Of a stretch of DNA of 33,632 nt, positions 6,870-10,240 are shown piece after piece (within the stretch, counting starts at the first letter, position 1; each line of letters starts with the position of its first letter). The notes below the pieces were generated by a model, which worked only from the letters and a program-made list of their open reading frames with translations, was not told the DNA's origin and made no database searches. This DNA is from a virus. The stretch is taken from IMG/VR virus record IMGVR_UViG_3300035703_000283, positions 1 to 33,632 of that record. One strand, written 5' to 3'. A program made the position numbers and the translations under genes.

Positions 6870-6988
6870 CCTTTACATCTAACACGCCATTTCCGCGGAG
6901 CCGCGGATGGTGATGCTGGTTGAGGAGCCTCGCCAGGAATGAAGCAAATCCCTGCGTATTCAACCACTCACCGTAAGGAAACAATCAC
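6870..6988 (+). promoter_or_regulatory. Leader of the capsid gene with GC-rich hairpin
   Basis: A 119-base gap between protease and capsid genes. It contains a self-complementary TCCGCGG AG CCGCGGA (6892-6907) that can fold into a short hairpin without a T-run. AAGGA before ATG 6989 is the capsid ribosome site. TAACCT at 6867-6872, overlapping the protease stop, is -10-like. The gap could boost or separately control capsid expression; this is inference. Confidence 0.35.
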
Positions 6989-8176
6989 ATGAAGGAATAC
7001 ATCGACCGTCAGGTCGAACAGCGTCAGCGCGCATGGGAAGCCGCCAAGGCTCTCCTGGACACGGCTGCTGCTGAGAAGCGTGACCTGACCGCAGAAGAAG
7101 AGCAGACCTACCAGCGCATCAACAGCGACCTCGCTGAGCGCGCCGAGCGCATCCAGGCCCTCAAGGCCGACATGGAGCGTGAGGTGAAGTTGGCCGAAGC
7201 CACCCGCGACATCGTCGCGCAGGTGCGCCCCTCGGTCGCTCACGAGTCGCGCAACGATGCGGATCAGATCCGTTCGCTGGCCAACGGCGAAGTCCGTTCG
7301 CTCGTGTTCGAGCGTCGTGACGTTGTCAAGACCTCGGCTGGTGCTCCTGTCCCGACCTCGTTCTACGATCAGGTCATCGCACAGGCTCGCCTCGTCGGCC
7401 CGATGCTGGACGTTTCGACCGTCCTCAACACGGCTGGCGGAGAGAACCTCCAGATTCCGTCGCAGGCTGGTTGGTCGACGGCGGCAGTCGTCGGCGAAGG
7501 AACCGCCATCGACGAGTCCGACCCGACGTTCAACAGCTTCGTCACGCTCGGCGCATACAAGTATGCGTTCCTCGTGCAGCTGTCGCGTGAACTGATCGAA
7601 GACGCGGGTGTTGACATCCTCGGCTTCCTCGCCACGCAGACTGGTAACGAACTGGGCTTCCGTGTCAACGCTGGTCTCACCACCGGCAGCGGCTCGGGCG
7701 CACCCAACGGCATCGTCCCCAAGGCAAGCCTTGGTGTTACGGGCGGAACGGGTGTCACTGGTGCATTCACGGCAGACAACCTCATTGACCTCGCGTACAG
7801 CCTCAACGGTGCGGCGCGTCGTCTCCCCGGTGTCGGCTGGATGATGAACACCAAGTCCCTTGGCGCAGTGCGCAAGTTGAAGGACACCGCTGGTTACTAC
7901 ATCTTCAGCCCCGCGCTGGCAGATGGCAATGACCAGGTTCTGTCCTTCCCGGTGTACGAGAACCCGGCGATGGCTGACGCGGCGGTGAACGCCAAGTCGG
8001 TGCTCTTCGGTCACCTCCCCTCGTACTTCGTGCGCATGGCAGGCGGCCTCCGCCTGGATCGCAGCGACGACTATGCGTTCAACGCAGACCTCGTCACGTT
8101 CCGCGCCACGATGCGTGTGGACGGCAACCTGCCCCAGACGAGCCATGTCAAGTATTTCATCGGTGGAACGGCCTAA
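6989..8176 (+). CDS. Major capsid protein (HK97 fold)
   Basis: Main shell protein, 395 residues. Residues 1-100 are a charged helical delta-like domain (EQRQRAWEAAKALLDTAAA, LTAEEEQTYQRINSDL) of the kind that acts as internal scaffold and is removed by the prohead protease. The HK97 core follows: FYDQVIAQARLVGPML, IPSQAGWSTAAVVGEG, SFVTLGAYKYAFLVQLSREL with the E-loop region, LGFRVNAGLTTG, a long spine helix and a C-terminal strand VTFRATMRVDG. AAGGA precedes the start. A strong terminator follows the gene, so the capsid message probably ends there. Confidence 0.96.
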   Translation: MKEYIDRQVEQRQRAWEAAKALLDTAAAEKRDLTAEEEQTYQRINSDLAERAERIQALKADMEREVKLAEATRDIVAQVRPSVAHESRNDADQIRSLANGEVRSLVFERRDVVKTSAGAPVPTSFYDQVIAQARLVGPMLDVSTVLNTAGGENLQIPSQAGWSTAAVVGEGTAIDESDPTFNSFVTLGAYKYAFLVQLSRELIEDAGVDILGFLATQTGNELGFRVNAGLTTGSGSGAPNGIVPKASLGVTGGTGVTGAFTADNLIDLAYSLNGAARRLPGVGWMMNTKSLGAVRKLKDTAGYYIFSPALADGNDQVLSFPVYENPAMADAAVNAKSVLFGHLPSYFVRMAGGLRLDRSDDYAFNADLVTFRATMRVDGNLPQTSHVKYFIGGTA

Positions 8177-8231: not shown

Positions 8232-8277
8232 GGGGCGGGACGAAACACGCAGGGTCGTCCCGCCCCGCTTACTTTTT
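8232..8277 (+). terminator. Rho-independent terminator after capsid gene
   Basis: A perfect 12-base-pair stem (GGGGCGGGACGA at 8232-8243 with TCGTCCCGCCCC at 8255-8266) and an 11-base loop are followed by a T-rich stretch ending TTTTT at 8273-8277. This is the best terminator in the window and marks the end of the head transcription unit. Confidence 0.9.
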
Positions 8278-8306
8278 CAACCTGCGTACCTGCGAAGGAG
8301 GACATT

Positions 8307-9608
8307 GTGAATGGTCGTCGTGATAAAGGGCGTTCCCGTCGAGTTGCCGGAGCCGGAGGCGATCCTGCTGTTGCAGCGGGGTCTAGCGCACTTGCCAGAA
8401 CTGTCAGTTACCGATCCGAGGACTCGTGCCGAATCCTCTGGTACTCGAACGCCCCGTGGACGTCGACAGGGTACGGGCAGCAAACCGCGCAAGCCGTCTC
8501 AAGGCTCACGCAGCAAGGCCACGAAGTCGCAGTCCACGCCATGTACGGACTTGAAGGTGCGCCGTCAACGTGGAACGGCATAAAGATTTATCCACGCGGC
8601 TTGTCTGCGTACAGTGACGATATCATTGTTGCGCATTGGATGGAGTGGACTCACGCCACCAAACTGCCGAAATTGTTGATGACTTTGTTTGATGTGTGGG
8701 TGTTGAAAGCCCCAAATCTGGACAAGATTCCGAACATTGCGTCGTGGGTTCCGATTGATCATCAGCCTTGTCCACCTGCTGTGGCGGAGTGGTGTCAACG
8801 CCCGAATGTATTGCCGATTGCGATGTCGCAGTTTGGTCAACGGATGTTGGAACAGTTGGGGATTCGTAGCGTTTATGTTCCGCATGGTATTGAGGATGTG
8901 TTCAAGCCCACTCCGTCGCTGTCTGATGCGAATGGCAAGCAAGTCACGGGCCGTCAAATCATGGGCATCGAGGACGACAAGTTTGTTGTGATGATGACTG
9001 CGGCGAACAAAGGTGTTGTTCCATCGCGTAAGGCGTTCGCCGAAAACTTTATGGCGTTCGCCATGTTTGCTGCGGATCATCCCGACGCGGTGCTTTACAT
9101 GCATTCTGAGGCGACCGGCGCGATGGGCGGCATTGACCTGAACGCTTTGGCGACTGCGTGTGGAATCAAGGACGAGCAGATCAAGTGGGCTGACCCATAC
9201 ATCTATCGTCAGGGGTTCCCGAATAAGGCTTTGGCTGCCATGTATTCGGGGGCTGATGTGCTGTTGGCGTCGTCGATGGGTGAGGGGTTTGGCATCCCAG
9301 TTGTGGAGGCGCAGGCTTGCGGCACAAGGGTGATTGTCTCGAACTTCACCGCTCAGCCGGAGTTGGTTGGGGATGGGTGGCTTGTGGATGGGCAGCCTTG
9401 GTGGGATGCGGCCCAGCGGTCGTGGTTCTTCACCCCGTCAGTGCCCAGCATCCTGAATGCCCTCAGGGGCGCGTATGAGGCCCCTAGGAGCCGTTCTGAG
9501 AAGGCCATTGCTCATGCTCGGGGGTATGAGGCGGATCATGTGTTTGAGGCTTTCTGGAAGCCCGCCATGAAGGAGATCGCCGAGTGGTGTCGCACATCCC
9601 AACGCTGA
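8307..9608 (+). CDS. Glycosyltransferase, GT-B fold (GT4-like)
   Basis: Transfers a sugar from an activated donor. Glycosyltransferase similarity starts near residue 41 (RILWYSNAPWTSTGYGQQT) and continues through GHEVAVHAMYGLEG, VPIDHQPCPPAV, YVPHGIEDVFKP and a C-terminal donor-site block EGFGIPVVEAQACGTRVI (about residues 326-345), typical of GT4. The only in-frame start is GTG 8307, which forces about 40 non-homologous residues at the front. It lies only 4 bases from the ribosome site, whereas ATG 8311 in another frame has the better 8-base spacing. The true start, or a frameshift, is unresolved. First of four sugar-transfer genes; substrate unknown, probably a virion protein. Confidence 0.88.
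   Translation: MNGRRDKGRSRRVAGAGGDPAVAAGSSALARTVSYRSEDSCRILWYSNAPWTSTGYGQQTAQAVSRLTQQGHEVAVHAMYGLEGAPSTWNGIKIYPRGLSAYSDDIIVAHWMEWTHATKLPKLLMTLFDVWVLKAPNLDKIPNIASWVPIDHQPCPPAVAEWCQRPNVLPIAMSQFGQRMLEQLGIRSVYVPHGIEDVFKPTPSLSDANGKQVTGRQIMGIEDDKFVVMMTAANKGVVPSRKAFAENFMAFAMFAADHPDAVLYMHSEATGAMGGIDLNALATACGIKDEQIKWADPYIYRQGFPNKALAAMYSGADVLLASSMGEGFGIPVVEAQACGTRVIVSNFTAQPELVGDGWLVDGQPWWDAAQRSWFFTPSVPSILNALRGAYEAPRSRSEKAIAHARGYEADHVFEAFWKPAMKEIAEWCRTSQR
8311..8583 (+). CDS. Overlapping small ORF, plausible real N-terminus
   Basis: Runs in a different frame inside the 5' end of the glycosyltransferase gene. Its ATG is 8 bases after AAGGAGGA (8295-8302), the ideal distance. The first 40 residues look like a genuine small phage domain (IKGVPVELPEPEAILLLQRG, then LAHLPEL). 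After about 8425 it turns into a Ser/Arg/Lys-rich sequence that is probably only the shadow of the glycosyltransferase frame. It may be a separate overlapping gene, the true N-terminus joined to the glycosyltransferase by a -1 shift, or the result of a sequencing indel. Confidence 0.45.
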   Translation: MVVVIKGVPVELPEPEAILLLQRGLAHLPELSVTDPRTRAESSGTRTPRGRRQGTGSKPRKPSQGSRSKATKSQSTPCTDLKVRRQRGTA

Positions 9609-10240
9609 TCGTCCCGGTGCTCGCCGAGCACCAGCGGCTCAACACAATGCTCGCTTCCCTCGGGCATGTCGAGGTGCGTAACTTGATTGTGATTGACAAC
9701 GGCAACGACCCCGACTTCATCCTTTCCTGCAATAATGTGCAGAATCTGTGGTTCTGGCGGATGCCGTCCAATCTCGGAGTGGCAGCCTCTTGGAATCTGG
9801 GGATCAAAGCGACACCGTTCAGCGCTGGCTGGATGATCGTCGGCTTCGACGTCACCTTCGGGGAAGGCGCAGTCGAGGAGTTTCTGAGCTTGTGTGAACC
9901 AGGCAATCTGGTGCTTGGCGGGAAACCTGAGTGGACTTGTGTGTGGATCGGCTCAGATGTCGTCAAGCAGGTTGGCCTGTTTCACGAAGGGTATCATCCC
10001 GCCTATTTTGAGGACAACGATTACCAGATGCGTGTGGAGGCCCACGGGCTGCCTGTCGTGCGGTCGATGGCGAACATCATGCACCGCAACTCGTCCACTC
10101 TCAAATCGTCTGACGAATACCAGCAACGCAACGCGCACACCTTTGCGGCAAATCACAAACTGTTTCAGGAACGGTGGGCCAACGGCGTCCCCGAATCTGA
10201 CTGGTCATTACAACGGAGGCTTGATCTTTCATGGGATTGA
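9584..10240 (+). CDS. Glycosyltransferase, GT-A fold (GT2-like)
   Basis: A 218-residue protein with the layout of a small family-2-like sugar transferase: strand LIVPVLAEHQRL at 8-19, LIVIDNGND at 34-42, and the nucleotide-binding-region motif PSNLGVAASWNLGI at 61-74. VGFDV follows at 86-90 where the metal-binding Asp is expected, and FEDNDYQMRVEAHG sits near 142-155. The canonical DxD is reduced to FDV, so metal coordination may be altered. GTG 9584 (or 9587) overlaps the preceding gene by 25 bases and has AAGGAGA upstream. Likely acts with its three neighbours. Confidence 0.82.
   Translation: MVSHIPTLIVPVLAEHQRLNTMLASLGHVEVRNLIVIDNGNDPDFILSCNNVQNLWFWRMPSNLGVAASWNLGIKATPFSAGWMIVGFDVTFGEGAVEEFLSLCEPGNLVLGGKPEWTCVWIGSDVVKQVGLFHEGYHPAYFEDNDYQMRVEAHGLPVVRSMANIMHRNSSTLKSSDEYQQRNAHTFAANHKLFQERWANGVPESDWSLQRRLDLSWD

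Follow-up and report, generated by a model that had tools for sequence, protein, structure and literature searches.

Two conserved overlapping reading frames, very probably started from one Shine-Dalgarno site, at a phage glycosyltransferase gene

Very probably, a single ribosome-binding site serves two overlapping genes in the phage DNA analysed here, one Shine-Dalgarno sequence being followed by two starts in different frames that would yield two proteins with no frameshift. It comes from IMG/VR as a 33,632-base virus record and is called the window below. Its major capsid gene (6989-8176, PF05065 match) is followed by a 130-base gap and by the Shine-Dalgarno sequence AAGGAGGA (8295-8302, plus strand), the one site for both starts. 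The glycosyltransferase (GT) ORF extends from a GTG start at 8307-8309 to 9608 on the plus strand (433 aa, frame 0), and a small ORF extends from an ATG start at 8311-8313 to 8583 on the same strand (90 aa, +1 frame relative to the GT). The start pair thus reads GTGaATG, its two codons lying in different frames at a separation of 4 nt. A sequence-only reading of this DNA had pointed to a frame conflict here, and the conflict is real: its three elements are present, and 226 loci from a large family of uncultured tailed phages share the arrangement in two frames, far more than chance would give (with duplicate contigs among them, and about 116-120 distinct fronts). A ribosome bound at AAGGAGGA would start either at GTG 8307, making a GT whose overprinted front of 41 residues is predicted to begin MNGRRDKGR..., or at ATG 8311, making a small protein (predicted to begin MVVVIKG..., peptide MVVVIKGVPVELPEPEAILLLQR) that would consist of a beta-beta-alpha domain of about 30 residues and a disordered basic tail. 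The ratio of the two starts may be set by spacing and codon identity, and a covarying hairpin and probable pseudoknot next to the Shine-Dalgarno sequence may govern ribosome access. Direct observations on the sequences are the selection on the two frames (that of 8311 in front, that of the GT behind), the avoidance of GT-frame stops, and a GT-frame start that is kept and optimally placed; use of both starts in the cell is what we infer. The evidence for this mechanism is evolutionary, and strong.

The long frame encodes a group 1, GT4-like glycosyltransferase that belongs to PF00534 (E 9.7e-12; 45.2 bits against a gathering cut-off of 26.4). A match to PHROG 2170 (E 5.2e-36) spans GT-frame residues 42-408 and the phage protein matches start at residues 42-47, in agreement with the earlier placing of the onset of GT similarity at about 8427, in the frame other than that of ATG 8311. 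Residues 1-41 extend the N-terminus and are overprinted on the small gene. The GT lies among head genes and is followed by another GT-like gene, of the GT2 type (9584-10240, PHROG 29879). From the position of the gene alone, one may reasonably guess that the GT glycosylates virion proteins. Searches of genome contigs for the GT gave no match. The host is likely actinobacterial, since the nearest annotated record is a Pontimonas phage, phiPsal1 (MG835450). Gene 10 of phiPsal1 encodes a GT with 45% identity to the window protein, the homology covering 87% of the latter, and, as in the window, it comes right after the major capsid gene and has another GT nearby; unlike the window, phiPsal1 has neither the small overlapping gene nor the 41-residue front. 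Two other features of the region were observed: the GT2-like gene starts 25 bases inside the GT end (9584-9608), forming a second overlap within the cluster, and a 392-aa open frame on the minus strand (6968-8146) is antisense to the major capsid gene, probably as a by-product of codon composition.

We collected relatives by scanning viral contigs with two queries, the GT and the small domain. The start of the small gene is always 128 or 134 nt 5' of the GT motif [WF]-[YFH]-S-N-A-P, with no length change. Locus L004, whose GT is 97% identical to that of the window, has the identical layout, and so do much more distant contigs. All untruncated relatives possess a GT-frame start at -4, -7, -10 or +2 nt from the small-gene start, in the layouts GTGnATG, (A/G)TGn4ATG, ATGGTGn4ATG, ATGTG and GTGTG, and a maximum-likelihood tree of the GT bodies resolved three supported clades with several layout changes. 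We measured the Shine-Dalgarno distance from the start codon to the aligned 16S 3' end, as defined in PMC9841429. Counting the one closer to 13 where a context has two GT-frame starts, the aligned distance of the GT-frame start among 84 distinct contexts is 13 in 70 cases, 12 in 11 cases and 14 in 3 cases, numbers that exceed the independent events owing to kinship among the sequences. The distance of the small-gene start spans 11-20 in the same 84 contexts. Layouts changed more than once, and the spacing rule for the GT-frame start held every time. In the window, GTG 8307 is at aligned distance 13, which is the optimum and makes it a good start, and ATG 8311 is at 17 (a second register, on AGGA, puts it at 14). 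The sequence-only reading had preferred the ATG by spacing and had found no good start in the GT frame; neither opinion survives these distances, which fall at 12-14 for a GTG or ATG in the GT frame of every one of the 84 contexts.

The beginning of the small ORF evolves as a coding sequence in its own right. Among distinct close relatives, the freely varying base in 8311-8415 is the third position of frame 1, the frame of ATG 8311, and from about 8427 it is the third position of frame 0, that of the GT; the switch coincides with the onset of GT similarity. Selection on the protein of the 8311 frame covers the first ~35 codons in ~120 distinct related viral sequences. The four-fold sites of frame 1 in codons 2-14 differ by 0.48 in the clade of the window, as compared with 0.46-0.53 in the GT body, and those of the GT frame in the front differ by just 0.07-0.08 beside these values, and by 0.03-0.08 across the clades. 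Since the former vary as the GT body does and the latter hardly vary, the 8311 frame codes for a protein that is of consequence. Residues A17, L20, G24, A26, H27 and E30 of this frame are invariant across clades, whereas the GT-frame residues there vary. AlphaFold2, with 48 aligned sequences, predicted a beta-beta-alpha structure for residues 1-30 of the small protein (pLDDT above 90) and disorder beyond residue 30 (pLDDT about 45-58), so that the predicted ordered part matches the selected stretch. The proposal that this front is a real small phage domain is supported by the selection and by the predicted fold.

The tail of the small protein is basic and is read out of frame from the GT. The small ORF stops at about 65-118 aa depending on the clade, hence its tail length is not conserved. 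A conserved tail was considered and rejected: simulated GT-synonymous sequences often stop sooner, the difference not being significant, and given this result and the stop variation we treat the tail as tolerated. Searches of Pfam, PHROG, NCBIfam, PDB sequences and phages by tblastn gave no match of weight for the small protein, and no relative of it was found away from the GT locus. Its Foldseek matches had E values of about 0.1 or worse, the best being the FlagStaff connector (E 0.12, prob 0.96) without a sequence match; the model thus suggests a weak fold likeness, at E about 0.1, to the small head-to-tail connector proteins of phages. A separate observation concerns 8353-8388, codons 15-26 of the 8311 frame, where synonymous change in two clades is 0.14 and 0.09, compared with 0.48 and 0.35 in codons 2-14, and in a third clade is 0.44, with no reduction. 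The low values would reflect constraint either on the GT-frame peptide or on an RNA feature.

The GT frame also appears to be translated through the front. It is weakly conserved there as protein, with conserved stretches within clades. Its stops number zero over 48 distinct fronts, where 68 would be expected with the 8311 frame alone mattering and where the third frame (frame 2) has 113; likewise, a T before AA, AG or GA at the frame-1 wobble position, which would create a GT-frame stop, occurs in 0 of 656 cases, against 28% in the GT body, all these counts being larger than the number of independent events because the sequences are kin. The avoidance spans the whole front and is already present at the first codons.

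Four other explanations of the locus were weighed. The same selection pattern, with frame 1 in front and frame 0 behind, would result from a programmed -1 frameshift, with initiation at ATG 8311 and a later slip into the GT frame that would fuse the small domain to the GT. The passage from the 8311 frame to the GT frame is -1, permitting such a shift, and a canonical heptamer, AAAGGGC, stands in register at 8325; however, this heptamer, the only canonical one in the window, is found in 3 of 135 relatives and is placed 5' of the larger part of the conserved domain. Conservation is likewise lacking at every other slippery site, the best X_XXY_YYZ position being present in 8 of the 135 sequences. 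Moreover, a frameshift makes the GT-frame start unnecessary, yet this start is conserved at the optimal distance in 84 of 84 contexts through the layout changes, and it does not account for stops being avoided in the GT frame from the first codons on. We regard the frameshift, by which the sequence-only reading would have joined the two frames, as very improbable. That reading had also offered an indel, and a sequencing or assembly error of this kind, or a decayed pseudogene, at 8311-8430 has nothing in its favor except the frame conflict itself. The layout is the same in over 100 distinct contigs, drawn from independent metagenomes, with an unchanged length from the starts to the GT motif, and since these independent contigs belong to three deep clades, error can be excluded for practical purposes. 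Overlapping genes, the remaining possibility raised at the outset, is what stands, the 8311 frame being conserved and the GT start kept.

Could only one of the two proteins be made? Production of the GT alone from GTG 8307, the 8311 frame being a chance ORF, would agree with the better spacing of the GTG to the Shine-Dalgarno sequence and with the lack of database matches for the small ORF. It is highly improbable in view of the variation of 8311-8415 at the third position of frame 1, of frame-1 residues that stay invariant where those of the GT frame vary and, as far as a model can tell, of the confidently predicted fold. The converse, that the site starts the small protein alone and the GT begins at a later or unusual start, for instance near residue 42, with the 8307 start incidental, draws on outgroup GTs that start near the position of residue 42, and we consider it very unlikely. 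The GT frame of the window has no further start codon between GTG 8307 and about residue 42, most relatives lack any ATG, GTG or TTG in this frame from the front start up to the GT motif, and the avoidance of stops in the front and the placement of the start would be left unexplained.

Two starts at one Shine-Dalgarno sequence have precedents. Ribosomes of E. coli initiate in both frames at AUGUG and GUGUG according to the Shine-Dalgarno distance (PMC9841429), and Thermus rnpA-rpmH, with AUGGAUG and a single GGAGG, is given in PMC9841429 as the only bacterial ambiguous start described earlier. In that paper, the Thermus starts are 4 nt apart, in different frames and served by one Shine-Dalgarno sequence, the very geometry of GTGaATG in the window. 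The Thermus pair gives two real proteins, as the selection pattern suggests for the window. The phage family differs from the Thermus case in its genes, in belonging to a phage and not to a cell, in having GTG as the first start of the window, in its variable layout and in the covarying leader RNA upstream. The start pair is found in all relatives, the single Shine-Dalgarno sequence of the window is within usable range of both starts, and both frames appear to encode functional proteins, judged only by the selection pattern. Relatives of the window use exactly the ATGTG and GTGTG of E. coli pqiA, tamA and narQ (PMC9841429), and those of the L080 type, in which an extra AAGGA motif sets the small-gene ATG at distance 14, resemble tamA in having two Shine-Dalgarno motifs, one per start. 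The alternative frames of pqiA and tamA encode peptides of 10-15 aa (PMC9841429), unlike the second frame of the phages, which codes for a conserved domain whose fold is predicted with confidence. The large group of ATGTG relatives has aligned distances of 11/13, outside the E. coli ambiguity range of PMC9841429; by those rules they should start almost only at GTG, and their small protein would thus be weakly made unless the host differs. The lambda S holin/antiholin gene, as cited in PMC9841429, is another phage gene with two close starts, in that case in the same frame and giving two versions of one protein, in contrast to the two proteins of the window. The present family offers a natural series of ~120 sequences in which two conserved proteins apparently arise from one site whose start pair was rearranged several times, so that rules of start choice can be read from evolution and are testable. 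It is an overlap of the kind that gene callers tend to misresolve, and it is accompanied by a covarying leader RNA that is not in Rfam.

Outgroup loci (L084, L161 and L168-L172) suggest how the overlap arose. They carry a small gene in the +1 frame that terminates beside the GT start and differs from that of the window, and their GT begins near the position of window residue 42; in L084 the junction is CGCCGTGA, in which GTG is the GT start. It is probable, from these comparisons, that a small gene extended into the GT and that the GT took over its ribosome-binding site. Loci L159-L180 form a distinct phage group with another small gene, which precedes the GT and stops at its start or next to it; in several members this small gene has a motif like G-x-TRV-x-EG.

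The leader upstream of the start pair contains a hairpin at 8232-8266 (plus strand), with a 12-bp stem (8232-8243/8255-8266) and an 11-nt loop, AACACGCAGGG (8244-8254). All 12 stem pairs change on both sides among 29 distinct sequences, with 99.1% of the cells paired, and the covariation score of the whole structure was reached by none of 500 shuffles. The loop is almost constant within each of two types, ACACGCAGGG and TCGTGCAGG. In the window, CCTGCGT at 8281-8287 (plus strand) is a Watson-Crick match to ACGCAGG of the loop and a candidate pseudoknot partner, and a second CCTGCG copy at 8289-8294, on the same strand, abuts the Shine-Dalgarno sequence. Across types the partner is CCTGCG or CTGCAC, 5' of the Shine-Dalgarno site. 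A match of at least 6 nt to the own loop is present in 69 of 83 distinct leaders, compared with 1.5% of shuffles, the partner strand having been picked as the best match, which biases toward pairing; with the loop of the other type, 14 of 82 leaders reach at least 6 matches, compared with 68 of 82 with their own. Two loop-partner pairs change on both sides between types, and four loci (L047, L049, L050 and L052) are devoid of the partner strand. The loop and CCTGCG thus probably form a pseudoknot beside the Shine-Dalgarno sequence. The leader of T4 gene 32 mRNA has a pseudoknot upstream of the start site, as proposed for the leader of this phage family. The two leaders (for that of T4, see PMC535899 and PMC3014915) differ in sequence and length and show no sign of homology, the likeness being a resemblance only.

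A role of the pseudoknot as a frame selector is conceivable, though rather unlikely. The loop, paired to the near or the upstream CCTGCG copy, or melted by a bound protein, would steer ribosomes to one start, and the phage would thereby set the ratio of the small virion-region protein to the GT from one ribosome-binding site. A plain terminator is a less likely identity for the hairpin, its T-run not being conserved and its loop being so. No Rfam family matched the leader above threshold, the best being a miRNA hairpin at chance level (20.1 bits against 82). The hairpin occurs in all clades of the family and, among the matches listed in a pattern scan of viral contigs, the loci examined showed the element solely ahead of this gene pair. 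The hairpin and the GT are present in all 79 untruncated loci among those matches, of which 74 fit the small-domain pattern; of the other five, at least four visibly encode the small domain, one residue or spacing off the pattern.
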